Shown in pieces: positions 9,229 through 57,461 of a DNA stretch of 57,461 nucleotides. Made by a program: the position numbers and the translations under genes. The notes below the pieces were generated by a model. That model did not search any database. It saw only the letters and a program-made list of their open reading frames with translations, and had not been told where the DNA came from. The stretch is from the IMG/VR virus record IMGVR_UViG_3300017788_000030, positions 1 to 57,461 of that record. One strand, written 5' to 3'. The DNA comes from a virus. The number at the start of each line of letters is the position of its first letter. Position 1 is the first letter of the stretch.

Positions 9229-9273
9229 ATGGATATGAGAAGAACATATGTTCCTCTTCATGTCCATTCCTAG
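9229..9273 (+). other. Short ORF carrying the first PHP motif, cut off by TAG TGA
   Basis: An ATG at 9229 with AAGG about 11 nt upstream reads MDMRRTYVPLHVHS and then meets TAG (9271) and TGA (9274). This 14-residue peptide is exactly the expected start of a DnaE PHP domain, where HxHxxxS leads into YSLLDG. The rest of the motif continues in another frame from GTG 9273. The two pieces are separated by the equivalent of an 8-nt insertion. The stop and the next start overlap as TAGTG, an arrangement that allows re-initiation. It may be a disrupted start, a programmed frame change or a sequence error. Confidence 0.75.
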
Positions 9274-11120
9274 TGACTCACTACTCACTATTGGATGGAC
9301 TTTCTCAACCACATCAAATCGCTAATAGGTGTTTGGAAATTAATGCAAAATCGTGTGCAATAACTGATCATGGCAATATTTCTGGTACTATTAAATTTTA
9401 CACAGAAATGAAAAAACATGGTATTAAACCCATAATAGGTTGTGAACTATATATCTCGTCGGACGACGCTTCTATACAAACCAAAGAAAACAAAAAACTA
9501 AGTCATCTACTTGTTTTAGCTAAAAACTATAATGGTTGGAAAAACTTAATAGAATTGGTTTCATTGTCTAATAAGCCGAACTATTACTACCATAAGCCCA
9601 GGCTAGACCTATCTCTGCTAAAGCAATACGTAAAAGGTGACTTAGTATGCATATGCGGGCATTTAGGATCATTCATTGCGGATAAATTAGTCTCCTCTGA
9701 TCAGATTATATCGGACTGGAAAAATGTGGGTATTGATAACATTAATTCTTTTAAGGATATATTCGGTAAAGATAATTTTTTTCTAGAATCCCAATTAATG
9801 GATCAAGAAAATCTGCCTGTGCAAAAAACACTAACAGACTGTATTAGAGAACTAGGAATAATTACAAATACAAAAGTGGTCTGTACGCCAGATGCCCATT
9901 ATTGTAGAAAATCCGATGCTATAGATCAGAGAATATTATTATGCAATAATCTAAAAACAACTTTTGGTGAAATTAGCAAGAAAATTCATAACCACGAAGA
10001 TATTCCGCTGTCTGCTTTCTTTACCTCGGATAATTTTCATATTTTATCTCAAGAAGAAATATGTAATTTGCATACCGAAGAAGAAATAGAAAATACAAAT
10101 CTAATAGATTCCATGTGTGAAGAATATAACATACTAGACAAGCCCAATCTTCCTCCTTTTGGTTGCCCGAAAGGGTATACCGACGCCGAGTATCTTAGAG
10201 AACTATGCAGAAAAGGATGGAAAGAAAAAATAGCAAAAATAGTACCAGAAAACGACCAAAATACTTATGTTGATCGTATCAAGTATGAATTAGATGTTTT
10301 GCAGGGTGCTAATCTTTCTAGCTACTTTTTACTAGTGCAAGATATTGTAAACTATGTTAGAACAAATAATTGGCTACCCGGACCAGGACGCGGAAGCGCT
10401 GCTGGATGTTTGGTATCATATCTAATTGGTATTACTAATATTGATCCTATTAAATATAATCTAATGTTTGATAGATTTTACAATTCTGGCAGAAATACTA
10501 AAGATAGAATATCAATGCCAGATATAGATGTTGATGTTCCAATTAATAAAAGAGAAAATATTATCCAATATATCAAAGATAAGTATGGTGAGGACAAAGT
10601 TTCTCAAATGATAACCTTTAATACCATCAAGGGTAGAGGCGCTCTGAAAGATGTTCTTAGAGTATATGGAAATATATCTTTTGACGAAATGAATAAAATT
10701 ACTAAAAATATCCCTGATGAAGCAAAAATTGCAGACGAACTTCAGGAAATGAAAGAAGAAACTGGAGAAGCGTCTATTATAAGGTGGGCATTGGAAAATA
10801 ATGCAGATAGCTTAAGAGATTATTGTTATATAGATTCAAATAATACACTAAATGGTCCTCTTGCAAAAAGGTTTGAGCAGGCTATTAGATTGGAAGGAAC
10901 AAAATCCAATCAATCGAAACATGCGGCTGGCATAGCCATTAGCGCCAATCCATTGAAAGATATTTGTCCTATGATCTATGACTCTAAAAACGATCAAATG
11001 ATAGCGGGTATGGAAATGCAAGACCTAGAATCATTAGGAATTATTAAATTCGATATTCTAGGAGTAGCAATGTTAGATAAAATTATGACAATTCAAGACT
11101 TATTAAAAGAAGGAGAATGA
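9273..11120 (+). CDS. dnaE: DNA polymerase III alpha, N-terminal half (PHP + palm)
   Basis: The frame begins at GTG 9273 with THYSLLDGL, then ITDHGNISGTIKFY and IKPIIGCELYI, i.e. a PHP domain missing only its first motif. Palm motifs are GPGRGSAAG (about residue 370), MPDIDVDVP (about 415, two catalytic Asp) and IKFDILG (about 591, the third catalytic Asp). The protein stops at residue 615, right after the palm; the fingers are encoded at 11,988. It is the catalytic half of the phage replicase. The better N-terminal sequence is in the short ORF at 9229, so the annotated start is doubtful. The 3' end overlaps a small gene; exonuclease and second half follow in coupled order. Confidence 0.88.
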   Translation: MTHYSLLDGLSQPHQIANRCLEINAKSCAITDHGNISGTIKFYTEMKKHGIKPIIGCELYISSDDASIQTKENKKLSHLLVLAKNYNGWKNLIELVSLSNKPNYYYHKPRLDLSLLKQYVKGDLVCICGHLGSFIADKLVSSDQIISDWKNVGIDNINSFKDIFGKDNFFLESQLMDQENLPVQKTLTDCIRELGIITNTKVVCTPDAHYCRKSDAIDQRILLCNNLKTTFGEISKKIHNHEDIPLSAFFTSDNFHILSQEEICNLHTEEEIENTNLIDSMCEEYNILDKPNLPPFGCPKGYTDAEYLRELCRKGWKEKIAKIVPENDQNTYVDRIKYELDVLQGANLSSYFLLVQDIVNYVRTNNWLPGPGRGSAAGCLVSYLIGITNIDPIKYNLMFDRFYNSGRNTKDRISMPDIDVDVPINKRENIIQYIKDKYGEDKVSQMITFNTIKGRGALKDVLRVYGNISFDEMNKITKNIPDEAKIADELQEMKEETGEASIIRWALENNADSLRDYCYIDSNNTLNGPLAKRFEQAIRLEGTKSNQSKHAAGIAISANPLKDICPMIYDSKNDQMIAGMEMQDLESLGIIKFDILGVAMLDKIMTIQDLLKEGE

Positions 11121-11122
11121 TA

Positions 11123-11308
11123 ATGTCATTACAAAGATTTGCCGATATTCCTGTGGGTACCAGGTTTAAAACAGATAATAAAGAATACGTTAAAATTCAA
11201 GATGAAAGACTGTCTTGTTGTAAGGTTCTAAATGCTGCTCTTATTTCGGATTCAACTAAAAAAACCTTTATTGTTCCTATCACAGAGGTAGAAGTTGTAA
11301 CAGAATGA
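11123..11308 (+). CDS. Small protein between polymerase and exonuclease
   Basis: This is a protein of about 61 residues (MSLQRFADIPVGTRF, then EYVKIQDERLSCC and FIVPITEVEVV). The motif F-x-D-[IV]-P-V-G-x-x-F followed by a Tyr-Val-Lys strand is typical of small all-beta phage proteins of unknown role. I prefer ATG 11123 to ATG 11117 because AAGGAG at 11109-11114 is then 8 nt upstream. It ends in an ATGA overlap with the exonuclease gene. Its fixed position inside a split replicase cluster suggests co-expression with the polymerase, but I see no functional motif. Confidence 0.6.
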   Translation: MSLQRFADIPVGTRFKTDNKEYVKIQDERLSCCKVLNAALISDSTKKTFIVPITEVEVVTE

Positions 11309-11991
11309 TCAACTATAATAAAATTTGCGTTTTTGACTTTGAAACAGATGGTATAGATGCAGAATCTTGTAGTCCTGTTCAGTTGGCTGCTGTGATGATC
11401 GATCCAATTAGTCTGGAGATTGTTCCAAGTTCTGAATTTAATATCTATTTTAAGCCAGAAACTCTTGAGAAAGATCCAGAATATACTTACACAACAGACG
11501 TTGTTGATTTTCATGCCAAGGTTTATGGTTGTTCGAAAGACGATATTATGGCCAAATGGAAGTCTAATCCTTCTCAACAACACTCTTGGAAAATGTTTAC
11601 AGATTATCTTGATAAATACCATACGAGAACATCTAAAAAAAGCCAATTTAGCGCACCCATAGCTGCTGGATATAATATATACAGATTTGATTTGCCAATT
11701 ATTAATAGGCTTAGTACTAAATATAAGAACTTAAACAAGGAAGGAAAAACAGATCTATTTTATCCAAGAGATGTTATAGATGTTATTAATCTGGTGTTTT
11801 ATTGGTTTGAACAAAATAGTGACATTAAAAGTTATACCCTAGATTCTCTTAGAGAATACTTTGGCATATCTACAGAAGGCGCTCACGATGCCTCCAAAGA
11901 CGTTACAGATACGGCAAATATAATGATTAGATTTATGAAATTACATAGAAGACTCTCAAAGAACATAAAATTCAAGGACTCTTTTAAATGA
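11305..11991 (+). CDS. DnaQ-like 3'-5' proofreading exonuclease
   Basis: This 228-aa protein has all DEDDh motifs. Exo I is VFDFETDGID (D11, E13), Exo II is near residues 120-128 (YNIYRFDLPIINR, with the Asp), and Exo III is GAHDASKDVTDTAN near residue 193 (His and Asp). It corresponds to the epsilon subunit that removes mispaired 3' ends. It starts in an ATGA overlap with the small gene and ends in an ATGA overlap with the second polymerase half, so it lies between the two parts of the polymerase and should be made in equal amounts. There is no visible beta-clamp-binding motif that I can name with confidence. Confidence 0.88.
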   Translation: MINYNKICVFDFETDGIDAESCSPVQLAAVMIDPISLEIVPSSEFNIYFKPETLEKDPEYTYTTDVVDFHAKVYGCSKDDIMAKWKSNPSQQHSWKMFTDYLDKYHTRTSKKSQFSAPIAAGYNIYRFDLPIINRLSTKYKNLNKEGKTDLFYPRDVIDVINLVFYWFEQNSDIKSYTLDSLREYFGISTEGAHDASKDVTDTANIMIRFMKLHRRLSKNIKFKDSFK

Positions 11992-13604
11992 AGAAGTTTG
12001 CTTATTCTTGTGGATGCTCATTTGATTTATTGGATCAGAACCAAAAAAATATTGACTTTAATCCTATTAACAATCAGATTAATTTAGATTGTTCAAAAAC
12101 ATGGAATCTCATATCTGATGGAAATACCAAAGGTTGTTTTCAATTAGAGTCTCGCTTAGGACGATCCATGGCCAAAAAGCTGAAACCTCAGAATATAGAG
12201 CAACTATCTGCCTTAATTAGTATTTTAAGACCGGGATGTCTGGAGGCTGTAAGAGACGGAAAAACAGTTAGCAATCATTATATAGATAAAAAAAATGGTA
12301 GAGAATCCGTAGATTACTATCATCCGGCACTTGAGCCAATACTTCAAAAAACCTATGGTGAAATGATTTATCAGGAACAGGCTATGGAGATAGCTAAAGA
12401 AATAGCCGGATTTGATCTTCAAGAAGCCGACAATTTGAGAAAAGCTATTGGTAAGAAAAAACCAGAAGAAATGTCTAAGCTAAAAAATAAGTTTATAGAT
12501 GGAGCAAGAAAAAAACAAATAGTATCAGCATCCGAAGCCGAAGAAATTTTTGGTTGGATAGAAAAAAGTCAAAGATACTCTTTCAATAAAAGTCATGCTG
12601 TCTCATACGCTGTTAATGCTTATTTATCAGCATATTGTAAAGCTCATTTCTCTAGAGTATTTTTTGCGTCTTATTTAAGATTTGCTAAAGATAAAATAGA
12701 TCCAAAAGCAGAAATTAAGTCATTAGTTCAAAACGCAACAGAAATGGATATTTTGGTTAGCGTACCAGATCTACGACTTATGAACGAATTATTTATGCTT
12801 AAAGGTAAAAACATATATTTTGGCCTAACAGATATCAAAGGCTTCGGATCTTCTGTATATAAAAAATTATCTAATGTAATCGAAGATAATAAAATTGATC
12901 TATATCAATGTGATTGGTATGACATCCTTTTACGCATACTGGTTAATATCAATTCAACTGCTGCTAAGGCTTTAATAAAATCTGGAGCTTTAGATTTTAC
13001 TAAAAAAACCAGAACAAGTATGCTATTTGAATTTAGTCTAGTTAGTGAATTAACGAATAAAGAAATAGTATATCTAATTAACAATATACCGTTCTGTAGT
13101 AGTATATACGAATTTATATATAAGCTATTATGTGATCATAAACTAACACAAAAAAGAAAAATGACTATTAACAGCATGTTGGATACAATTAAAAAACCTC
13201 CATATTCTCTCGAAGACAATCCCGAATGGATAGCAGACTCTGAAGATGAGGTTTTAGGATGTCCCATTACTTGTTCAAAAGTAGACATGTACGATGTAAG
13301 CATGACTAATTGTAACTGCAAAGATTTCAAAACTATCCTAATCAAAGACAACATTATCGTATGCGGAGAGATATCGGGACTCAATGTAACAAAAACAAAG
13401 TCAGGAAAATCTCCTGGTTCGGAAATGGCCTTTGTTTGCTTAACAGATGGATATGGTTCTATTGATAGTGTTATATTTTTTCCAGAAGCATACAAAACAT
13501 ATAAGCATATTTTATTTGATAATAACATCATTATTATTAAAGGCAAAAAGGGACAAGGCGATGATTCACTTATAGTAGAAAAATGCTTTATACCAAAAAC
13601 TTGA
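11988..13604 (+). CDS. dnaE: DNA polymerase III alpha, C-terminal half (fingers, HhH, OB)
   Basis: After a short unusual leader (FAYSCGCSFDLLDQ) the protein reads LISDGNTKGCFQLES and LKPQNIEQLSALISILRPG, the fingers region that follows the palm in intact DnaE. The segment TYGEMIYQEQAMEIAKEIAG and a Lys/Glu-rich helix follow, then KSHAVSYAVNAYLSAYCKAHF (residue about 205). The HhH-like part is around residues 330-400. The end is an OB fold (IIVCGEISGLNVTKTKSGKS through VFFPEAY-like strands). It starts in an ATGA overlap with the exonuclease. It must associate with the PHP-palm half to make an active polymerase. No intein residues are present at the break. Confidence 0.87.
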   Translation: MKKFAYSCGCSFDLLDQNQKNIDFNPINNQINLDCSKTWNLISDGNTKGCFQLESRLGRSMAKKLKPQNIEQLSALISILRPGCLEAVRDGKTVSNHYIDKKNGRESVDYYHPALEPILQKTYGEMIYQEQAMEIAKEIAGFDLQEADNLRKAIGKKKPEEMSKLKNKFIDGARKKQIVSASEAEEIFGWIEKSQRYSFNKSHAVSYAVNAYLSAYCKAHFSRVFFASYLRFAKDKIDPKAEIKSLVQNATEMDILVSVPDLRLMNELFMLKGKNIYFGLTDIKGFGSSVYKKLSNVIEDNKIDLYQCDWYDILLRILVNINSTAAKALIKSGALDFTKKTRTSMLFEFSLVSELTNKEIVYLINNIPFCSSIYEFIYKLLCDHKLTQKRKMTINSMLDTIKKPPYSLEDNPEWIADSEDEVLGCPITCSKVDMYDVSMTNCNCKDFKTILIKDNIIVCGEISGLNVTKTKSGKSPGSEMAFVCLTDGYGSIDSVIFFPEAYKTYKHILFDNNIIIIKGKKGQGDDSLIVEKCFIPKT

Positions 13605-44996: not shown

Positions 44997-47900
44997 TTAT
45001 GCTTGTTGAATATTTATTCCATCAAAATTATTACTAAACGAACTAAGTGCTTCATTTATACGACCACTAATAATTCTTTGTAGTCCCGGCTCTATCGAAG
45101 CCAGCGCTTCTGCTCCGGTGAGAACTATTTGGATTGGTGGTAGTGGGGCTAGTTGCATGGTTATGGTGTCTGGAATCCTAATAGACGATAATTGGTTAAT
45201 AAAAGTATTAAATGTTTGTGTAAAAGCAGATAGTCCGTCAATATTATTTACACCGTTACGATTATTAGTAATATTTGTTTGTGTTGGAGAAATCAAACCT
45301 TTAGTAACTTGACCAAGTAAGCTAGTAAATGTAGTCAATTGTTGATTTACGCTATTAAATATTTGTGTTAGAGTATTTTCTTGTGGAGCAACCACATTTC
45401 GTATCTCCTGTTGTCGTTGTGGAAATCTGGCTTCTTTATTAATTCTTTGTGCCTCAAAATGCTCTTGTATTTTGCGTATAAGAGGGGAATCGAAATCGCT
45501 TCTTAAATATGCTGGGGTTCCTGTCTGTCTATTATAACTTTGAGCTAAATTACCATTACTTTGAATTAAAAATCCTATACTTTTTATTAGTGCGTCATAT
45601 GGCATTTGTTTTAAACTTGTGTGTGTGGACGATCCTGATCCTCGTTGCAAATAAACCACACCTCCATCAGCATAATTGCCGCTATTAATAGCTTGCAATA
45701 GTGGTAAATTAGCTTGAGTAGCAGCACGATTAACCACAAACTCGCCGGGCGTTAGCATAGCAGGGACAGTGTCGGTGCCGCGAGGTTGATAGTTTACATA
45801 TTGACCTTGGCTAGCATATACTATGCCGCCCCTACTTTGATAAATGTTAGGAGTCAAAGACTTTTCTGGATCAAGAGGTGCTAGTCTACTATGTCGTAAT
45901 CTGTCTGCTCCTTGTCCAAAGAATGGTAGACTAATACCTCCCTCGTCCCTAACCAAGGCGCCTTGTGCTTGTGGAAATAATTTTCTAAGAATATTATAAA
46001 CAGAATATTCGTCTGGTCTTCTAAAAGTAAATTCCATGGAATTTTCAAAATCCGCAAAATTTGGTAGATTCATTTCTTCTGGTAGAATTGTTCTACCCTG
46101 AATATTCAATTCTTTTCTAGTAATGCCACTACCTCTAAGCATTCTCTCTAATTGTCCAGATGGGTCTTTTCTTGTTCTAGCGTATTCTTGTAGCGCTGGC
46201 AACAATGTTTTCAAATCGCCGGATGTACTAAAGTTAAATAAGGTCGTGCGGCTCCCCGGAGGGTATTGATTTGGATTCGGTAGATCTACTGAGCCAACAC
46301 CACTAACAGAAGGATCTAGTCCAGCAACTTTTTCACTAGAGCCCAATAAATCATAAGTAGAAAAAGCTTTTCTGGCTATCGTCTTTTCTCTCAATTCGGC
46401 ACTTTCAGGCGAAAATAGCTCTAGAGCAGACTGTATTGTTCTAGACATGATATTTTGTTGTTGAACATAAGCATCTTGAGGAAGATTTGGTTGGGATGCT
46501 AATTCTAAAGGTGCTTTATCAAAAGCGGTATACGCCATTCCTTTGCTTGCTGGTCCAGCATTAACAGCTCTTGGTCCCACCTCTGGTGGCTGTCCAAAGT
46601 TTTTAGCTCCTGGTTGTGCCATTCTAAAGACTGGTAAATCAAGACCCATTTGTGTTGCACGAGATGCTCTGCTATTTGGGTCCATCGGTAGTTGCCCGGA
46701 CTTTACTTTATCTATAGTTGTTTGATCAACACCATAAGACTCTAAAAATCTTAAGTATTCTTCGCTAATAGTACCAGAATCTAATTGTCTAGACAATCTA
46801 TATTCTAATTGTTTTTGTAATGATGCTAATTCTGTTTGTTGTTTAGCTATCTCTACCATTAGTTTAGATTGTTTATTACGAATTGTTGTTGATAGTTTTT
46901 TCCGAGCTGATTCCGATAAGGAACTATCATTCATTTTTGTGTCTCTAGTTTGTGCTAAATCATCTAATACTTTAAAATTATCACTGATTTGTGTCCTAAG
47001 TTCACTAATTCTTTTTATACTGGTTTGTGGTTTAGCTCCTGGTTGTGCAAAACCAACAGCTGCATTAACAACAGCATTTCGTGTCAAACTATTAAGGTCT
47101 GTTGGGATATCAAAAACTTGATTAGAGGCAAGTTCTACTCCTGTGCCTATGGTTGCACTAACTCCAGCAGCAGTTGCTCTTGTTCCCAGGGTTCCGACCA
47201 TAGAACGAACACCTTGTGTTGCTAGTCCATATCCCATTCCTGGAATAGCTCCGGCCACAGCACTAGTTACGGGATATTCTCCCATTAGTTGGTTAGCTTT
47301 TTGATTAGCTTCTGGAGCAACAGCATCTAGTCCTGCTTCTTGAATATAGCCCGCACCCATAGCCCCGACTACTCCACCAGTAAGAACAACTAATGGATAA
47401 GCAGGAGCGAATGGAGTAAGCAGCATCGGAGAAGCTAATTGAGCGGTTGCCGACCCTGCTGCTATACCAGCAGCTGTTGGACCGATAGATTTAGCAGCAG
47501 AAACGCCAGCAGCCTGAACTTGTCTTTCTTCTAAAGCAAATTTTTCCCAGTTGAACGTACTAATAGGACTCTGAGCATTGGTTGAATATGGACCCATACC
47601 AGCCCTATATGCTGCCATACCATTTGGTATTCTCATACCATCCTGAGCATAAACCAATCCACCCTTACTATATCCCATAGTTTGCATACTTTTTCTTAAA
47701 AAAGCCTGACTAGCTGGCATATTATTAAACTCAGGAGTATCTGCTATACTGGCTATTACAGCAAATAATTCATTTGGATTAGCATCTAATTGAGCTATAG
47801 TATAACCAGTATCTGCTAGTTTTTGATAATTATTATCTACTAGTTCTTGTCCTATTTGAAAAACAATACTACTTCTGGCATTTTTTCTATTTCTAAGTTT

Positions 47901-50900
47901 TTGTTGTAGTTGTGTTTTTTCTATATTATATTGTTCTTCAACTTTCTTTGGATCAATTCCTGCATCTAAATATTGTTGTTTTTTTAGTTGTGCTCTTTGT
48001 TCCCAAATTTGCATAGCATCATCCGAAGAAAAGTCTCCCATTTGAGCTGCAAACTGTTGATTTCTGACATTAGGACCCACATGAGTAGTATTGGCTAAGG
48101 CATGAGCCATCTCGTGCTTGGCCATTGCTGATGTTACGACCCTATCACGAAAAATTATATTTCTTGATTGTAAATCAAACGTTGCGGAAGCTCCAGACGG
48201 TAGACCTGATTGTCTAATTCCGGAGATGCCATAATTTTGATTTGTTGCCATTAGTAATTTTTGTTGTCCTTGTGGACTACTAGTATAACCTTGTAGTGAG
48301 TCTGTTAGACTATTCAGAGTATTTTTCATAGCATTCGGATCAAAAATATCTATAGCATTCAACTGCTCATTCTCTGGTAATCCACCATATTGAGCATAAA
48401 CAACTCCTCCTTTGGCATAAGGAAGTGATACGCCAACCTTTGCTCTATCCTGGGGTGTAGCAAATTTTTTCCATGTATTACGATCAATTCTTATATTACT
48501 ATTATTGGGTCTCTTAATTAGTACTCCCTCATTATTCCAACTAACATAGTCACCTACTAGTGGTTTATCACCAATTAAACGGCCATTTAACCAAGTATAT
48601 CCAGCAGATTTTGGCGTGGGTAGTGGAGAAGTTGATGGTTGTTTGCGATTAGTACCAACCGGAGGTCTGGGGGTTGATGGCATGGGCCCAGCCGAAGGTC
48701 TGGGACTTGGTGGAAACGGATCTAATCCGGCCCCTGTTCTTATTTGTCTCTCTCGTTCTGCATTATCTGCTTCTTGTTGTGTTTTAGCTCTTCTTTGTGC
48801 GCCTGGAGTTAATGGGGTTGGTGGACCACTTCCAGGAAAATTATTACCAGGAGGATCTAAAAATATTCCTTTCCCGGTTTCGGATTGATCTTCAGGTGTT
48901 GTTGGACGAGGTTTTATTGGGGGTTTGTAGGGCGGAGGCTCTAAAAATGGACCCGATGGAGTTCTCCGTGTTTTTTCTGCTTCTTCTTGTGCTGTTGTTC
49001 TAGGCTGAGGAAGTTGTTCTGGTTTTTGTCTATGGCAAGCTTCGACATAGTTGCGGTCGATCTCGCTGAGTCGATTGAGCGGCACACGGATGACGCTGCC
49101 GTTGGACTTGCGGATTTCGACCACGTCGTCTTTTAATCCTTGGAACCGACCCACCGTCGCATACTTTCCGCTCGCGTCCACCCAGCGCCGCTCTCGAATC
49201 TCTTTTTCATCACATTTTATTTTTACAGCAGCTTTATCTTTTTCTGTGGCAGCGGAAGGTTGCGATGGTTTGGGAGATTGTGATTGTTTGGCGGGGCGCG
49301 TCTTTAGAATACGTTCCTGATCTGATTTAATCAAGTGGTCAAATAAAAGATCGGTCTCCTGATAACGGGGTTCTCCATTTTCTTCGCCAGTCTGATACTT
49401 TATCAGAAAACGATCATGATCCTTCCAACCTCGAAACTCTCCTTTAAATATGCTTCTGCCTATAGCGTCTGTCTTTGGAGAGCCAAAATTCTGTCGATCA
49501 AATTTGTTTTGAGCGGTCCAGGTTCTAATACCTAACCCCTGTTCCTTTAGTGCTTGTTTTTTCTGATCATCACTACATTCGTATTTTTTTGCCGCATCTA
49601 ACATGTGTCTTAAAAAGTTGTTGAGACCGCTATTATTCAATCCTTCAATTATGCGATCTTGCGCGGCTACATTTTCCTCGTATCTCTTCTTTGCGCCCGC
49701 CGTACGCCCACCCGCGAGCCAATCCTCCATTCTGCGCTCTCGGTTGTTGATTGGAGCGGGATCATTTCGACTAACTGGTGGCACATACCATACACTATCA
49801 TCGTTGTCGGTTATTGGAACAGTCGTAACCTCAATGAAACAATCATTGTTATTCTTATTAAATTTGCCAATCTTATGTCTATATAATGGAGCACTCGTTC
49901 CACTACCTCCTTCTTTTCTATCCCACAGTTCTACTTGAGTTCCATTATAGTAGATTGGGAGCCCTTCGGCATCCCGGCTTTTTGTTGTAAAATAACCTTC
50001 CCTTAGTCCGTTTTGTACAGCATAATAAGTGGCTTCTCCTCCGTGTATACCAATTGTTTCCTTTGCTACACCTCCCTTTTGTAAATAAACAACTCCTCCT
50101 TTCGCATATTTATTTATGGATCCACCCTTACTATTATTAATACTTTGTAATAATGGTAAATTAGCCCTTGTCGCAGATCGGTTAACAACAAATTCTCCGG
50201 GAGTTAACATGGCCGGAACAGTATCAGTACCACGCGGTTCATAAGGAACTAACATACCATTATTAGCATAAACTATTCCTCCTCCAGCGGCAGGGCCGGC
50301 GGCTCGCCGAGGGACGTGCCCCGCGGGTGGAGCGGACCACGGGGGTGGGCTGAAATCTCCGCGCCGCCGACGCTCATGCCGCCGAGGAGGAGGTGGCCGC
50401 CGAGGAGGAGGTGGCCGCCGAGCCGGAGGTGCGGGTGGCTGTTGCCCGGCTCCAGCAGGAGCGGGAGGGGCTGGCATTCCCGGCATCCCTGGTACCAAAG
50501 CAGCTATTAAATTAATTATAGGTTGAAGTTGGTTAATAATTGGATTCCAGACATTCATCATATTTATGATGGCGCCTATACCTCTTTGGGTAGATCTACA
50601 ACATTTATCAATAGCTTCTAAAATAGCATCTAATTTAGCATGAGCACTCTTATCACTTAATGGCACATCATCAGTATTACTTTTTACAATATCTTTAGTA
50701 CTATATCCTAGTTTATTCGTATCTTTGCTAATACTTAAATTTTGTTTAGTCATTGTGTATATTTCACTAGGTTTTGTAATTTTTACGCCATCCTTAGTGG
50801 CAACCTGGGTCATATCTTCGGCTGTTCCTCCTTCTTGTAAGTATTTAACGCTGCCGCCTTTGCTCCTGTTGATAGATTCTAACAAACCTCTATGCCTAGA

Positions 50901-53900
50901 TGTTGCTTGTTTATTAACAACAAATTCTCCCGGTGTAAGCATCGCCGGCACAGTATCAGTTCCTCTTGGTTCGTATGGCACCAACATACCATTATTTGCA
51001 TAAACTATTCCTCCCAAATTTTTAGGATTAGCTATTCTTATAACTTTATTTTGAGCCTGTTTATTAGGAAATAAAAACTGTGCAACATTACTTCCGCCTA
51101 AAGCATTAAGTTTTTCTATGCTAGCATCAGGATTTCTAGGATCAATATATCCTTGTCTTGTTAGCCTTTTTAAGAGATTACCCCTAGCATTATCTTGATT
51201 TCTTTTATCTAATTGATTAAAGCCACCAACCATTTTATTAAAGTTGTTTATGTCGTTAACACTCTTAATAAAAGCTGTTTTAAACTTCTGATTAACTTTA
51301 GGATTTTTGTCTATTATGTTTAATAAATATGGATTATTTTTAGCAGTATTAAGTGCTGTGCTAGATGCTTGAGATAATAGTGATATTTGATTACGTAGGG
51401 CCGGATCGGTTTTTGAACTAACAGGAATCATTGATGCTACAGCAGCTATTTGATTATTATCAAAAGGCCTAAATATTGCTTCGGCTATTTTAGCATCCAA
51501 ACCATATTGTTGCATAGTTTGAATATCTGTTGTAACATCTCCGGATAGTGGAAATTTGCCCTTTAATTTTTCTAGAATATTTGATCTTAGTGTTAAGAAC
51601 CTACCAGGATTCTCAAATTTAGAAGGTAATTGAATATTACTTATTCTGGATAAAGTTTTCCACATTTGAGCTTGTTTTTCAGCTTCTTTATTTGCTAATA
51701 CTTTCTCTCTTCTTTGAGATTCTTGTGCTTTTTTAAGCATACTAGTATCATAGTCATTCCAGAGTTGGTCTGCTAATTCATCAGGAGTAATATTTAAATT
51801 ATTCTTACTTATATAATCTTTTTTAGCTTCTTCATATGATGCCCTAATACTATCATCTAATTCTACCAAAGCTTGATAACCTTTTAATTTAACGCCTGGA
51901 TCTATAGATTTTTGAATTTCATTTTCTTTATTTTTTCTCTCTATTAACAATTTTTGCCAGTCTTTAAATGCTGGGTCAGAATTAATAATATCAGAAGGTA
52001 GGCCTCCATTATCTCTATCAAAAGAAATCTGTCTTAAAGTATCTGTTGAAACAAATCCGAACCCACCACGATTATCAAAAAAAGTTTGTAATTCACCGTT
52101 TTTAGCAGCTAAATCGTCTTGGTCTTGTTTTCTTGTCTGAGCCTGTTTTATATCGAAATCATTCGCCCATGTAGGTAAATTTAGTGTTTTTAATAGATTC
52201 CGTCTATCATTTTCTTTATCTGCCATGTTTTTGCTTCTTTGTATGGCAGCATTTGTTTCTGCATTCAAGATGTCTTCGTCGGTAGCATTATGATTCAAAC
52301 CTAACGCTCTTGTTTTTTCTGTTCTATATCTATAGTCTTGTTGTTGTTGTGCCAACAATTGTTCTTGTGTTCTTTGTTGTCTTTGTGTTATTTCTGTTTT
52401 TCCGGTCTCTATGATTTTTTGAATTATTAGATCAATATCTTGTTGTTTAGCTGTTTTATATACTAAATATACTAAATCATCACCAGTAATTTGAGGTAAA
52501 GACAGTTGTTGTTGGTCTAATATCCGTAAAAGCTTATCTTTTATATCTTGAGACATGCCACTACTATTTATTCTATCTTTTTCTAAAGTAATTCTGATCA
52601 TCTCATCTACATATGTTGCTGCTCTTGGACCCAATCCTGATTTCCACCAATCTCCTTGTTGAGCGGACTCTACTTCTGATGACTGCATTCTTGAAGCCAT
52701 TTGTTCTGATGCTAGTCTTTGTTGTCTAGCTTCGTAAGCTGAAACACTGACATAGCCCATTTGAGCAATTTTATCAACTGGTCTTGTTAGTCCACCAAGA
52801 GCACTACCCAAGTATGTTTGTTGTTGTTCGCTTTCTTCTCTTTTTTTCTTATCGAATGCTTTAGGATCGTAAGCTAATTCGCCAAATGTTTGCACAGTAT
52901 CCAAAACCACATTTGTGCCTAAAGGAGCAGCCTTTGTTAATAATCCGGCTGCTGATCTTGTAGCAGCAGAATAGCCGAACCTTGCTCCTATATCTGCTGT
53001 TAATCCAACTGCTTGCGCAGTTGTTTCATCCGCTCCTAATGCTGTGGCTCCTGTTCGTAAAGCTTGTTGCATTAACACATTGCCAGCTACTGATCTTAAG
53101 TTTGCAAATTGTGTAACTTGCTGCCTAGTTGGAGTAACAGATCCAACCGCAGATTTAACCCCTTGTCCCAATCTTTGTAATGATCCCTCTGGAACTAATG
53201 TCGGATTCGGAACACCAACATCTGCTGCCCAATTATTAATACCTCTTCTTAAAGAAGATAGTCTTGATACTTGAGGAGCGGCCGTTGCTGATTGAGCAGC
53301 GGCCGTTACTGATGGTGCGCCTAAAGTAGCATTGGTTGCTGCGCTTTTAGCTCTAACATCTTTTATGTTTTTCCGAAAAGCATCATCTGTATCCGTGCCA
53401 TCAGCAGCATAAACTACTCCTCCTCTACTATATGTTTTTCCACTTCCATTACTACTATTAATACTTCTTAATAGTCCTAAATTATTTTTGGTAGCTTTAG
53501 CATTAACAACAAATTCCCCTGGTGTTAACATAGCAGGAATAGTATCTGTACCTTTAGGAGCAAAATTAACATAAGTTCCATCACTAGCATATACTACTCC
53601 TCCTTTAGACTGAGTTTGTGGAACTCTGCCTGGAGGAGTTAATCCTAATCCCATACTTCTTAATTGTTCAGTATTAAATCTAACCTCAATACTACTTAGT
53701 GCGTCAATAAATTTTTGATTCGCAGCATCTAACACCGCAGTTTGTTTATCTAAAGTGTTTTGGTTAATTCTTTGTGTAGTATCTATTAATGACCGTTGTT
53801 CTGAAGCTAGTAATGCTTGTAATTCTTTTATTTCTCTACTTTGTTCTGGAGGTTGTTCTAGTCTACTAATAATAGTTTGAAATATAGGATTATTTTGTAA

Positions 53901-56900
53901 TCCGGATCCTTGAGAAGACGCTAAGTTTTTGAATAATTCTGCTCTTACTGGTCTTAATTCGTCTTCTTCTAAACCGCTCATAGAACTAAGTTCATTAAAT
54001 AAAGTTAACACATTTCGCGTTTGTCCAGCAAAAGCTTGTTGAGCAGCAAGCATAGCTTCTTGTTGGGTCTTACCATCTGTTAAAGCTTGTCTATAAGCTA
54101 ATTGAGCAGCTTGGGATTGTTGAATAGTATTTACATTTCCCGACAGGGCGCTGTTTAATACATTAAATGTAGTACCTAATTCTTGTAATTCTTGCGGCGT
54201 ACTACCAAGCAATCGTTCGCCAAAGCCTGTTGATGCCTGAGTAATATTTGCAGATTTTTGTTGTATTCTAGATATTTCTGAAATAATATCATTAATATTT
54301 TGTTCTATATTTTGAGGTAAACTATCTAACGCTTGATTAACCTGTCTAATAGATGACTCTGTTAAACCCAATTCTTTATTTAGTGCAATAAATTGTCTAG
54401 ATGCTGCTAAGTCTCTTTTATCAAAAGATTGCGCCATATTTGCTAAAGATTTTTCAATATTTTGTTTTTGTTGTATTAATGAGTCTCTTCTATCAGATAA
54501 TGTGCCAGCATTTAAATCTTGTGGTCTTACTCCGGCTTTAGTAGCCGCAACCGACGTTCTAGCTTGTCTTCTTTGGTCCAGGGTAATTCTTTTACCCAAA
54601 GCTTCTTGAAAACTTATATTACTTTGAGCAATAATATTTTGAGATGATGCTATATTTTCAGCTAGTTTATCTTGCAAAGATCCATATTCTTTTGCTGCGG
54701 CTCCAACAAAATTTAAAGCATTTTCTAAAAATTTTGCACTAGCATTTAATGCTTCAAATACTTGTTTACTAGCTTGTATTTGTTGGTTTAATCCAGGAAT
54801 ATTTTCTAGTATATCTTGTATGCTAATATCTTCTAACTTATTTCTACCCTTTACAAACTCAGCAATAGCCGGTTTAAATTGGGCTCTAATACTTTCTCCT
54901 AGTTGTGGTCCAAAAATATTATCTAGTTGATTAGTTAATAAACCACTTAATCTATCGCCAATAACATTAGGTTCAGTAACGCCTCCGGCTTTGGCCTGAT
55001 TTAAAGCTGTTGTCATAGAGTCTTCTATATCCAAACTGAATCTAGCAAATTTTTCTACAAATTGTCTATCTTGTCCAGCGAACTGAGCTGACTGAGATAT
55101 TGCAGCATTTTGTTCAGTTCTAGAATATGCTCTAGGATTTTCTAGAATATTAGATGATCTTAATTTAATACTAAAATCAGCAGAATCACTAACTATATTT
55201 TGGATACTTTCAGAAGCCTGATCTAAACTAAAAGATGCCGCATTAATTGATTGATTAAGAGTTTCAAAAGTTCTGGTTAAACTAACGGAAACTAAATTTA
55301 GCTGTTTTGTGAGCATATTATTAGCTTTGGCTCTGGCGATCTCAGAAAATCTGGTCTCAATGCTTGTTCTAATTTCTTGTGTTTTTTGTGCTGTTAATTC
55401 ATTGATTTTTTGATTTTTTGTGTCTTCGGCATCTGTTGATTGTTTAATTTTTTCAACTTCTACAGCATAAGCTGTATCGGCTTCCAAAATAGCAGCATAT
55501 AATTGATCAAAAGATGATCCTCCTTGTTGTAGTTTTTGGGACACTGTTGCATAATCCTGCGTAGCTTGTATCTGAGAGTCTAAAAATTGTTGAGCTACAG
55601 CAGCTGCTTTTTGTTGATTCACAGCTTTTTCACCCCCAACAGTTTCTGCTGTTGGAGACGATAAAATACCTAATCTTCTGCCGATTCCGGTTAGCGTAGA
55701 CGGAGCATTTGCTCTTTCTCTAGAAGCTGCTAGTTTAGTTTCTTCCGTTTGTATTCTTTGGAAATTACCAATAACATCATTAAATGCACCTTTATCATTT
55801 ATATTAACCGACATTCTTTCAAAAGCTTTGCCTGTAGTATCAAAAATTTGATCAATTCTAGCGCTAGTAGTTGTTGCTTCAAAATTTGCAACACTAGCAC
55901 CCCAACTATCTATTGATGTGGCTAATCCAACAAGCAAACCTCCAATAGCACCTATGCCGCCAAACTGAGATCCAATGCTAGTAAATGTAGAAATATTTGA
56001 TGCTACTCCGGCAACCCCTGCTCCTGTTGCTCCTCCTATAGTTTCTCCTAATTGACCAGCTAACATTGGTCCGGTAAAAGCTAATGCTGTACCCAATCCA
56101 GAAAAGTTAAACTTGTTACGTTCTTTACTAGCGGCACCTTGTGTTTGTGACAATTGATCTGATGATTGTTGTAAAACATTTTGACTTTGTGTCGTTTCTT
56201 TAATTTCTTTGTATAGTCCACCCCAAGCATCGGCTACTCTTCTTTCCGCTGCTGCTACAGCATCGGTAAGAGGAATACTATTATTAATTTTTCTAATTTG
56301 TGCAGCAATAGCATTGACTTGTTTTCTTTGTACTTCTGCTACGAGTTTTGCGGCATCTTGGTCACCTGTTTCTGCTGCTCTAAAGGCACCAAAAGAAGCC
56401 GAAGGATTTGCCACCGGATTACTTTTTCCAAATAGAGCAGTAACTGATGTCTGTGTAATAAATTTTTGTAAAGCTTCGGTAGCAGCCTTTGTAACAGTAG
56501 TAAATTTATCTACTGGCCCATAATTAGTTCCACCATCCTTAAAACTTCTTATTCCAACACTACCGCCCTTATTCAATCCTAATGCTTTTGTTGCTTTTTC
56601 TCTTATTATAAAACTACCAACTGGTAAACTTGTAGGAATACTATCACTAGTTCCACTGCCCGGCCCCTTAAATATGCTAATACCACCTTCACTGAATCGC
56701 CCCATACCATTCTTATCAGCTTGATTCATTTTATTTAAAGTACCATATCCAATTCTTTTGGCAACTTTTGGTGGTACATAAGCTTCGCCGTTGCTAACTA
56801 GCGCAGGAACAGTTCCTCCATCAGCAAATGCTAGCCTGCCACCATTTGCTCTTCCAAAATACTCTAAGGCCATTTGTCCAGAAGATTTTGCGGGTTTTTT

Positions 56901-57461
56901 CTTATTTCTAACCACACTATTAGGATCATTAATCAAGCTTGGACTTTTACTATATCCGCTTTGTAGTATCCAAGCGGGATCTGTTGGTGGAGGCCATGTT
57001 TCTCTACGCCCATAAAGTTTGGGATCTATTAATGACTGATTTTTTGTCCAGTCTTCTGGTTCTAATGGGGTTTTCTTAACATCTCCTCTATTCTTAAAAT
57101 AGTATTCCCATACCTTCTTAGCGTCTCCGCTCACACTACTTCTATCAGAAGTTAACATAGCTCCTTTTTCACTAACAGCTTCCATTATCACATCATATAA
57201 TCTTGGACCATAGCCACTAGTAGCTTTAGATAATCCTACATTATATAAATTATCTTTCATCTTATGTGCGTAAACATATCCTGATCTTTGATCATTTTTG
57301 TAATAACTAGCCGTAATCATATCGCCATCTTCATTTAATCCTATTTTCCCAAAATCTTTTTCTTTTTTAGCCGGAGCTGTTTCTGCTGATTTTCTATTTC
57401 CATAAAGACCACCCATTAAACTTGCCATTTCTGATGTAGCATCAGCAAGACCACCCTGAGC
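44997..57461 (-). CDS. Giant tape-measure-like protein with added modules (at least 4,143 aa, 5' end open)
   Basis: The frame is open from the right window edge; the first internal ATG is at 57428, so the true N-terminus may lie outside. Early residues (GYGPRLYDVIMEAVSEKGAM) resemble the GNAT-like domain of some phage structural proteins. Long coiled-coil and Gln-rich helices fill residues about 300-2,200, with hydrophobic Gly/Ala segments near 445-520, 1,420-1,520 and 3,300-3,440. Four near-identical TDTVPAMLTPGEFVVN-type units mark domain joins. Residues about 2,317-2,997 contain Pro/Arg-rich linkers and SHD1-like modules, and a HEMAH metallopeptidase motif is at about residue 3,105. It should fix tail length and be ejected into the host. 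Extra modules may act in the host. Confidence 0.75.
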   Translation of the reverse strand, partial: AQGGLADATSEMASLMGGLYGNRKSAETAPAKKEKDFGKIGLNEDGDMITASYYKNDQRSGYVYAHKMKDNLYNVGLSKATSGYGPRLYDVIMEAVSEKGAMLTSDRSSVSGDAKKVWEYYFKNRGDVKKTPLEPEDWTKNQSLIDPKLYGRRETWPPPTDPAWILQSGYSKSPSLINDPNSVVRNKKKPAKSSGQMALEYFGRANGGRLAFADGGTVPALVSNGEAYVPPKVAKRIGYGTLNKMNQADKNGMGRFSEGGISIFKGPGSGTSDSIPTSLPVGSFIIREKATKALGLNKGGSVGIRSFKDGGTNYGPVDKFTTVTKAATEALQKFITQTSVTALFGKSNPVANPSASFGAFRAAETGDQDAAKLVAEVQRKQVNAIAAQIRKINNSIPLTDAVAAAERRVADAWGGLYKEIKETTQSQNVLQQSSDQLSQTQGAASKERNKFNFSGLGTALAFTGPMLAGQLGETIGGATGAGVAGVASNISTFTSIGSQFGGIGAIGGLLVGLATSIDSWGASVANFEATTTSARIDQIFDTTGKAFERMSVNINDKGAFNDVIGNFQRIQTEETKLAASRERANAPSTLTGIGRRLGILSSPTAETVGGEKAVNQQKAAAVAQQFLDSQIQATQDYATVSQKLQQGGSSFDQLYAAILEADTAYAVEVEKIKQSTDAEDTKNQKINELTAQKTQEIRTSIETRFSEIARAKANNMLTKQLNLVSVSLTRTFETLNQSINAASFSLDQASESIQNIVSDSADFSIKLRSSNILENPRAYSRTEQNAAISQSAQFAGQDRQFVEKFARFSLDIEDSMTTALNQAKAGGVTEPNVIGDRLSGLLTNQLDNIFGPQLGESIRAQFKPAIAEFVKGRNKLEDISIQDILENIPGLNQQIQASKQVFEALNASAKFLENALNFVGAAAKEYGSLQDKLAENIASSQNIIAQSNISFQEALGKRITLDQRRQARTSVAATKAGVRPQDLNAGTLSDRRDSLIQQKQNIEKSLANMAQSFDKRDLAASRQFIALNKELGLTESSIRQVNQALDSLPQNIEQNINDIISEISRIQQKSANITQASTGFGERLLGSTPQELQELGTTFNVLNSALSGNVNTIQQSQAAQLAYRQALTDGKTQQEAMLAAQQAFAGQTRNVLTLFNELSSMSGLEEDELRPVRAELFKNLASSQGSGLQNNPIFQTIISRLEQPPEQSREIKELQALLASEQRSLIDTTQRINQNTLDKQTAVLDAANQKFIDALSSIEVRFNTEQLRSMGLGLTPPGRVPQTQSKGGVVYASDGTYVNFAPKGTDTIPAMLTPGEFVVNAKATKNNLGLLRSINSSNGSGKTYSRGGVVYAADGTDTDDAFRKNIKDVRAKSAATNATLGAPSVTAAAQSATAAPQVSRLSSLRRGINNWAADVGVPNPTLVPEGSLQRLGQGVKSAVGSVTPTRQQVTQFANLRSVAGNVLMQQALRTGATALGADETTAQAVGLTADIGARFGYSAATRSAAGLLTKAAPLGTNVVLDTVQTFGELAYDPKAFDKKKREESEQQQTYLGSALGGLTRPVDKIAQMGYVSVSAYEARQQRLASEQMASRMQSSEVESAQQGDWWKSGLGPRAATYVDEMIRITLEKDRINSSGMSQDIKDKLLRILDQQQLSLPQITGDDLVYLVYKTAKQQDIDLIIQKIIETGKTEITQRQQRTQEQLLAQQQQDYRYRTEKTRALGLNHNATDEDILNAETNAAIQRSKNMADKENDRRNLLKTLNLPTWANDFDIKQAQTRKQDQDDLAAKNGELQTFFDNRGGFGFVSTDTLRQISFDRDNGGLPSDIINSDPAFKDWQKLLIERKNKENEIQKSIDPGVKLKGYQALVELDDSIRASYEEAKKDYISKNNLNITPDELADQLWNDYDTSMLKKAQESQRREKVLANKEAEKQAQMWKTLSRISNIQLPSKFENPGRFLTLRSNILEKLKGKFPLSGDVTTDIQTMQQYGLDAKIAEAIFRPFDNNQIAAVASMIPVSSKTDPALRNQISLLSQASSTALNTAKNNPYLLNIIDKNPKVNQKFKTAFIKSVNDINNFNKMVGGFNQLDKRNQDNARGNLLKRLTRQGYIDPRNPDASIEKLNALGGSNVAQFLFPNKQAQNKVIRIANPKNLGGIVYANNGMLVPYEPRGTDTVPAMLTPGEFVVNKQATSRHRGLLESINRSKGGSVKYLQEGGTAEDMTQVATKDGVKITKPSEIYTMTKQNLSISKDTNKLGYSTKDIVKSNTDDVPLSDKSAHAKLDAILEAIDKCCRSTQRGIGAIINMMNVWNPIINQLQPIINLIAALVPGMPGMPAPPAPAGAGQQPPAPPARRPPPPRRPPPPRRHERRRRGDFSPPPWSAPPAGHVPRRAAGPAAGGGIVYANNGMLVPYEPRGTDTVPAMLTPGEFVVNRSATRANLPLLQSINNSKGGSINKYAKGGVVYLQKGGVAKETIGIHGGEATYYAVQNGLREGYFTTKSRDAEGLPIYYNGTQVELWDRKEGGSGTSAPLYRHKIGKFNKNNNDCFIEVTTVPITDNDDSVWYVPPVSRNDPAPINNRERRMEDWLAGGRTAGAKKRYEENVAAQDRIIEGLNNSGLNNFLRHMLDAAKKYECSDDQKKQALKEQGLGIRTWTAQNKFDRQNFGSPKTDAIGRSIFKGEFRGWKDHDRFLIKYQTGEENGEPRYQETDLLFDHLIKSDQERILKTRPAKQSQSPKPSQPSAATEKDKAAVKIKCDEKEIRERRWVDASGKYATVGRFQGLKDDVVEIRKSNGSVIRVPLNRLSEIDRNYVEACHRQKPEQLPQPRTTAQEEAEKTRRTPSGPFLEPPPYKPPIKPRPTTPEDQSETGKGIFLDPPGNNFPGSGPPTPLTPGAQRRAKTQQEADNAERERQIRTGAGLDPFPPSPRPSAGPMPSTPRPPVGTNRKQPSTSPLPTPKSAGYTWLNGRLIGDKPLVGDYVSWNNEGVLIKRPNNSNIRIDRNTWKKFATPQDRAKVGVSLPYAKGGVVYAQYGGLPENEQLNAIDIFDPNAMKNTLNSLTDSLQGYTSSPQGQQKLLMATNQNYGISGIRQSGLPSGASATFDLQSRNIIFRDRVVTSAMAKHEMAHALANTTHVGPNVRNQQFAAQMGDFSSDDAMQIWEQRAQLKKQQYLDAGIDPKKVEEQYNIEKTQLQQKLRNRKNARSSIVFQIGQELVDNNYQKLADTGYTIAQLDANPNELFAVIASIADTPEFNNMPASQAFLRKSMQTMGYSKGGLVYAQDGMRIPNGMAAYRAGMGPYSTNAQSPISTFNWEKFALEERQVQAAGVSAAKSIGPTAAGIAAGSATAQLASPMLLTPFAPAYPLVVLTGGVVGAMGAGYIQEAGLDAVAPEANQKANQLMGEYPVTSAVAGAIPGMGYGLATQGVRSMVGTLGTRATAAGVSATIGTGVELASNQVFDIPTDLNSLTRNAVVNAAVGFAQPGAKPQTSIKRISELRTQISDNFKVLDDLAQTRDTKMNDSSLSESARKKLSTTIRNKQSKLMVEIAKQQTELASLQKQLEYRLSRQLDSGTISEEYLRFLESYGVDQTTIDKVKSGQLPMDPNSRASRATQMGLDLPVFRMAQPGAKNFGQPPEVGPRAVNAGPASKGMAYTAFDKAPLELASQPNLPQDAYVQQQNIMSRTIQSALELFSPESAELREKTIARKAFSTYDLLGSSEKVAGLDPSVSGVGSVDLPNPNQYPPGSRTTLFNFSTSGDLKTLLPALQEYARTRKDPSGQLERMLRGSGITRKELNIQGRTILPEEMNLPNFADFENSMEFTFRRPDEYSVYNILRKLFPQAQGALVRDEGGISLPFFGQGADRLRHSRLAPLDPEKSLTPNIYQSRGGIVYASQGQYVNYQPRGTDTVPAMLTPGEFVVNRAATQANLPLLQAINSGNYADGGVVYLQRGSGSSTHTSLKQMPYDALIKSIGFLIQSNGNLAQSYNRQTGTPAYLRSDFDSPLIRKIQEHFEAQRINKEARFPQRQQEIRNVVAPQENTLTQIFNSVNQQLTTFTSLLGQVTKGLISPTQTNITNNRNGVNNIDGLSAFTQTFNTFINQLSSIRIPDTITMQLAPLPPIQIVLTGAEALASIEPGLQRIISGRINEALSSFSNNFDGINIQQA
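45729..45830 (-). repeat. Tape-measure PAMLTPGEFVVN unit, copy 4
   Basis: This is a 34-codon unit reading GGIVYASQGQYVNYQPRGTD then TVPAMLTPGEFVVN. It is the most C-terminal copy. Confidence 0.85.
48102..48116 (-). other. HEMAH zincin motif within the tape-measure protein
   Basis: The codons read HEMAH (His-Glu-Met-Ala-His) in the context TSAMAKHEMAHALANTTH, at about residue 3,105. This fits the HExxH metal-binding and catalytic helix of gluzincin/metzincin peptidases. A third ligand is not identified. Confidence 0.55.
48440..48600 (-). other. Weak third SHD1-like module
   Basis: YTWLNGRLIGDKPLVGDYVS then VLIKRPNNSNIRIDRNTW follow the strand plan of SHD1 modules (Trp at the start, a Gly turn, paired strands, a Trp/Leu before a helix), but key residues are poorly conserved. 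Confidence 0.35.
49040..49200 (-). other. SHD1-like module in GC-rich DNA within the tape-measure protein
   Basis: The coding strand reads RRWVDASGKYATVGRFQGLK, then DDVVEIRKSNGSVIRVPLNR and LSEIDRNYVEACH. The pattern R-x-W-x-D/x-x-G-K, G-x-F-x-G, V-x-L/I-R, V-P-L-x-x-L-S-x-x-D-x-x-Y is that of SHD1 (SLA1 homology domain 1), frequent in Planctomycetes proteins. Hand count gives 33 and 39 G or C in the two 60-nt lines 49,081-49,140 and 49,141-49,200 (55% and 65%). Confidence 0.7.
49315..49530 (-). other. Second SHD1-like module
   Basis: RTWTAQNKFDRQNF then GEFRGWKDHDRFLIKY and LLFDHLIKSDQERIL resemble the SHD1 plan (Arg-x-Trp-Thr, G-x-F-x-G, Leu/Ser-x-x-Asp-x-x), with an insertion in the middle. 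It lies upstream (N-terminal) of the clearer copy. Confidence 0.45.
50181..50282 (-). repeat. Tape-measure PAMLTPGEFVVN unit, copy 3
   Basis: This 34-codon unit has the same amino acids as copy 2 (50,913-51,014), though 14 of 34 codons differ synonymously. Confidence 0.9.
50281..50480. other. GC-rich Pro/Arg linker segment
   Basis: Lines 50,341-50,400 and 50,401-50,460 each have 45 G or C of 60 by hand count (75%). The - strand codes a Pro/Arg/Ala-rich linker (PPAPPARRPPPPRRPPPPRR). It sits directly beside a tape-measure repeat unit. Confidence 0.75.
50381..50416. repeat. Two perfect tandem 18-bp copies
   Basis: The unit gccgaggaggaggtggcc occurs at 50,381-50,398 and again at 50,399-50,416, followed by a degenerate third start. 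It codes a repeated Arg/Pro block. Confidence 0.9.
50913..51014 (-). repeat. Tape-measure PAMLTPGEFVVN unit, copy 2
   Basis: The 34-codon unit reads GGIVYANNGMLVPYEPRGTD then TVPAMLTPGEFVVN and is identical at protein level to copy 3. Confidence 0.9.
53502..53603 (-). repeat. Tape-measure PAMLTPGEFVVN unit, copy 1
   Basis: This is the most N-terminal full unit, GGVVYASDGTYVNFAPKGTD then TIPAMLTPGEFVVN. Two looser relatives near the N-terminus of the protein (56,570-56,690 and 56,740-56,830) show the same Gly-Gly/Pro/Gly/Glu pattern. Confidence 0.85.

Follow-up and report, generated by a model that had tools for sequence, protein, structure and literature searches.

The window analysed here, a stretch of 57,461 nucleotides of viral DNA (IMG/VR record IMGVR_UViG_3300017788_000030), raises the question of how SHD1, a binding domain known mainly from eukaryotes and planctomycetes, came to lie in a phage injection protein, and what it may do there. 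The protein concerned is a tape-measure protein (TMP). TMPs occupy the tube of the tail and pass into the host envelope during infection. A survey of phage protein mosaicism found block exchange inside TMPs, as is seen here, and could not confirm any case of recent domain gain in TMPs, although such gain has been suspected (PMC10684548). In the present case, by contrast, codon composition directly supports such a gain. A named cellular domain, a sharp codon signature and a relative whose copy at this site is older make it directly testable, and the case also offers a lead to the host of a phage group.

The giant tape-measure gene and its blocks

The giant ORF of the window (44997–57428, minus strand) is still open at the contig edge. 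The 5′ part of the gene lies beyond this edge, and the first ATG in the window is internal. The full-length gene is present in a relative, L003, whose 177,880-base record also encodes terminase, tail-fibre and baseplate-wedge-like proteins. The L003 TMP has 6,196 aa and carries PhageMin_Tail (PF10145) at aa 192–383 (E 5e-21). Its residues 2133–3503 share 75% identity with residues 1–1344 of the window protein. Based on this alignment and the open frame, 44997–57461 (minus strand) is assigned to the C-terminal two thirds of a giant TMP gene. The whole protein is predicted to have about 6,200 residues, with the PhageMin_Tail domain being seen in the relative. The window protein also matches a tape-measure family of PHROGs. 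The analysis is limited by the incomplete window record, by the fragmentary records of several relatives and by the short length of the SHD1. An assembly chimera was ruled out, since the sequences on either side of the SHD1 are collinear and in frame with their L003 matches.

A block of about 200 aa (aa 1–200; 56829–57428, minus strand) shows 58–75% identity in all relatives tested, and the later blocks vary. Searches with this conserved block gave no family match and no convincing PDB match. In the N-terminal half of the L003 TMP, beyond the window edge, P-loop kinase, HIGH nucleotidyltransferase, HAD-like phosphatase and HELTH peptidase motifs were observed (at aa about 848, 1004, 1463 and 1948). 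The nucleotidyltransferase match (PF16581) is weak (E 0.008), and comparison of this region with the PDB gave nothing convincing. Judged by these motifs, this half looks as if it were also a chain of enzyme-like blocks.

Four GEFVVN units of direct repeat family D1, all on the minus strand, are distributed along the window gene (53503–53603, also located by motif positions; 50914–51014; 50182–50282; and 45730–45830). Two short GGVVY units of direct repeat family D3, also on the minus strand, lie before (50061–50108) and after (48372–48419) the SHD1 block. The preliminary description placed the GC-rich segment between two GEFVVN units. This is true of a Pro/Arg-rich tract, which alone lies directly between the second and third units. 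The SHD1 lies in the wider gap between the third and fourth units, in which a HExxH block and a further 600 or so residues are also found, and its nearest flanks are the short GGVVY units.

The HExxH peptidase-like block (aa 3010–3270; 47619–48401, minus strand) was delimited by motif and conservation, with HEMAH at 48102–48116. The HExxH motif and a later Glu are conserved in three copies, and the block is 67% identical to that in L003. No Pfam family or convincing PDB family matched this block, which is a candidate zincin-like metallopeptidase. In the TMP of L025, a more distant relative, two dissimilar HExxH motifs (aa 2342 and 2805) and no SHD1 occur between the GEFVVN units located at aa 2155 and 3075, as if peptidase-like blocks had been exchanged in this late inter-unit gap.

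Identity and codon composition of the SHD1 domain

The TMP carries one genuine SHD1 domain (about 49026–49202, minus strand; aa 2743–2800), identified by Pfam PF03983 and by the yeast Sla1 SHD1 (2hbp) in both sequence and fold. The profile match within the record reaches 46.5 bits (E 1.7e-13), and the Pfam search for PF03983 that had been proposed as a check located the domain at aa 2746–2801 (E 6.4e-10). Scores of 39–46.5 bits lie above the family threshold, the curated PF03983 cut-off being 23.7. The phmmer search matched the yeast Sla1 SHD1 (2hbp) with an E value of 1.2e-4. For a template-free model, with a local pLDDT of about 70 in the SHD1, the top PDB match in Foldseek is again 2hbp (1.3 Å, 36% identity, prob 1.00, E 1.1e-3), and the structure model of the whole segment is of low confidence outside the SHD1. 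A profile built solely from planctomycete SHD1 domains scores the window domain at 47–55 bits. The domain is similar to those of yeast Sla1 and planctomycete proteins in sequence profile, fold and domain length, but differs in lying within a phage TMP.

One clear and two weaker SHD1 modules had initially been described, and the two weaker ones were not confirmed. The second module (aa 2633–2712) is without profile support (hhalign about 2%). The third is a small beta-rich module at aa 2942–3000 (48429–48605, minus strand), which shares 47% identity with its counterpart in L003. Its hhalign match to the SHD1 profile (42%, E 2.7e-4 over 29 columns) is well above that of decoy segments, and its own structure model does not single out SHD1. 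The match is suggestive of a possible distant SHD1-like domain.

Amino-acid-corrected GC3 was used for the composition analysis because Pro/Arg-rich stretches inflate raw GC. For each window of 60 codons, the GC3 expected for its residues under the codon usage of the genome itself was calculated. Along the gene, corrected GC3 is raised in two tracts, at aa about 2300–2400 and about 2520–2800, and peaks exactly on the SHD1 (z 7.5, whereas the highest value among 289 control windows was 4.2). The tract containing this peak (49029–49871, minus strand) is of foreign synonymous composition. The other raised tract contains the Pro/Arg-rich stretch at aa about 2300–2382 (50283–50531, minus strand), with GC up to 0.74 and a corrected z of 5.4. 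The GEFVVN unit between the two tracts has native GC3. Just past the SHD1, after about aa 2800, GC3 returns to background, and the Pro-rich linker that follows (aa 2801–2941; 48606–49028, minus strand) has native GC3 with a corrected z near 0. The earlier observation of a GC-rich segment in an AT-rich gene is thereby borne out and sharpened, and a mere Pro/Arg effect is ruled out for the SHD1 tract. When seven related TMPs were each compared with their own background, the window tract was the strongest by far (9.3), the next outside this gene being 4.8. Synonymous GC3 is 0.68 in the window SHD1, compared with 0.19 in the phage background and 0.12 in the L003 SHD1. Planctomycete SHD1s (n = 70) have a median GC3 of 0.71 (5–95% range, 0.53–0.87). 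These compositions support the view that the window SHD1 is a cellular-type domain of foreign codon character inside the TMP.

The SHD1 site in related phages and the source of the domain

Related phages were drawn from viral contigs. The block order in L003 is the same as in the window, namely GGEA segment, SHD1, Pro-rich linker, small module and HExxH block. Identity between the two, 67% across the HExxH block, declines to 41% within the SHD1 and to 17–25% in the stretch just before it. The L003 SHD1 has diverged so far that it scores 22 bits, under the Pfam cut-off, and the key sequence pattern is kept in both phages. Among the other related records, SHD1 was detected only in L024, whose copy is that of L003. 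No SHD1 was detected in the five related TMPs that hold the C-terminal half (L016, L017, L019, L022 and L025), which contain other blocks between two to five GEFVVN units.

Because L003, with a 75% identical TMP core, has an SHD1 of native GC3 at this place, the SHD1 site is older than the window copy. The segment had been taken for a cassette inserted at a domain boundary. A foreign SHD1 does lie in a region of variable blocks, but the L003 copy at the same place indicates that a new insertion alone does not account for it. The comparison suggests that the window SHD1 stretch most probably replaced an earlier copy recently, or was acquired anew, at an older site. Against a recent gain count the greater age of the first SHD1 gain, as indicated by L003, and fast divergence, which could partly mimic replacement. 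The modest identity (43–47%) of the nearest candidate donor likewise counts against it.

SHD1 domains had been described as frequent in planctomycetes. Whole-genome searches agree, with 3–23 SHD1s per genome in the seven planctomycete genomes tested and none in 14 control genomes, which represented the other phyla. A genome scan for planctomycete SHD1s used a pattern widened by one added alignment row, so its taxon list is biased; the whole-genome searches are unaffected. The best planctomycete match shares 43–47% identity with the window SHD1, about as much as the L003 copy, and no closer donor was found in the planctomycete genomes searched. A planctomycete-type, GC-rich source of the window SHD1 is likely.

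The planctomycete host suggested at first is plausible and unproven. Searches of 294–392 planctomycete genomes with the conserved TMP block or 20 kb of phage DNA gave chance-level matches only, and the L003 terminase shares about 25% identity with those of named phages. In 50,697 phage records the SHD1 block is unmatched, and the GEFVVN region weakly matches Brevundimonas phages. The window SHD1 is also unmatched in plasmids. Viral contigs L104–L106 encode planctomycete-type SHD1s with RTWTDxTGK, which were rejected as parts of TMPs; they lie in small separate ORFs and are likely host genes in those contigs. L036 (JABMRB010000027.1), titled Candidatus Nealsonbacteria, is 9.1 Mb with eight SHD1 domains and looks like a mislabelled planctomycete.

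Putative role of the SHD1 block and competing readings

The reading we prefer, with roughly even confidence, is an exchangeable SHD1/HExxH cargo block between GEFVVN/GGVVY units, whose SHD1 was recently gained or replaced from a planctomycete-like source and serves as an ejected peptide-binding adaptor. The C-terminal half of the TMP would be a chain of exchangeable blocks linked by these repeated units, and in one of the blocks SHD1 would be combined with the HExxH peptidase-like domain. The stretch that contains SHD1 (aa about 2520–2800) would be a recent gain, or would have displaced an earlier SHD1 from this site, and its donor would be GC-rich with planctomycete-like codon usage. The block would leave with the TMP at ejection, and the SHD1, as a small SH3-like peptide-binding adaptor, may dock the TMP or the adjoining HExxH block on a host protein at entry. 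Such an adaptor ejected with the TMP is the most likely role that we infer for the SHD1, with ejection and binding predicted by analogy to other phages. The SHD1 of Sla1 binds NPFxD-type peptides. The SH3-like fold of SHD1 and its peptide binding in yeast are mentioned in a citation within PMC12808100. In bacteria, domains with an SH3 fold are frequently linked to extracellular peptidases (PMC5906684).

Three other readings were weighed. The window SHD1 may have arrived via another phage rather than directly from a bacterium. If SHD1 circulates as a virion-protein module, the window copy could come from a GC-richer phage, which we regard as somewhat unlikely. In a 49-column tree, the three phage SHD1s, among them that of L029, group together (SH-aLRT 88), and L029 is an apparently unrelated phage of 51% GC. 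There, a 780-aa Pro/Gln-rich SHD1 protein (L029:9119–11461, plus strand) lies directly before a DarB-like antirestriction gene, and this adjacency also favours such exchange. However, the grouping is weakly supported with long branches, the L029 SHD1 has a lower GC3 (0.50) than the window copy, and its identity to the window SHD1 (45%) is no higher than that of planctomycete domains. The domain could also be passive filler, caught by illegitimate recombination in a TMP spacer that tolerates inserts and adding length only. The free variation of blocks among relatives, most of them without SHD1, and the divergence of the L003 copy to below the Pfam cut-off are in keeping with this. This reading is nevertheless unlikely: SHD1 occupies the same site, with the key pattern kept and the same HExxH block alongside, in two phages whose TMP cores share 75% identity. 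It is still less probable that the SHD1 works in virion assembly by binding another tail protein, for example Pro-rich stretches or the tail tip, instead of a host protein. SH3-like folds do bind short peptides and the TMP has Pro-rich stretches adjoining the SHD1, but related phages with similar tail genes manage without this domain.

An exchangeable cargo block, as we prefer it, has partial counterparts in known systems. The TMP gp96 of phage P23-45 has 5,002 aa with a fused virion RNA polymerase, which demonstrates that active enzyme components can form part of a TMP (PMC10770324). Both proteins are giant TMPs; gp96 carries functional and metallopeptidase parts, to which the putative cargo of the window TMP and its candidate metallopeptidase block would correspond, but the cargo of gp96 is a polymerase with demonstrated activity, whereas that of the window TMP is a cellular-type domain predicted to bind. 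TMP-related effectors of contractile injection systems (Sle1 and Tme) likewise carry exchangeable functional domains on a TMP-like carrier (PMC13277306); they differ in being bacterial effectors loaded in contractile nanomachines, whereas the window protein is a phage TMP containing SHD1. A wider generalization would see TMPs as open platforms: host-derived protein-binding domains would accumulate there, together with peptidase-like ones, in the spaces separating GEFVVN units, and would be carried into planctomycete cells, where they would meet host partners at entry. This generalization is speculative and in our view unlikely.

Elsewhere in the window, two separate genes, of 615 and 538 aa, encode the halves of DNA polymerase III alpha (9273–13604, plus strand), and a polymerase-exonuclease-like gene of 228 aa (phrog_192, E 3.6e-20) lies between them. 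The related record L010 (10028–14359, minus strand) shows three ORFs with identical lengths and order.
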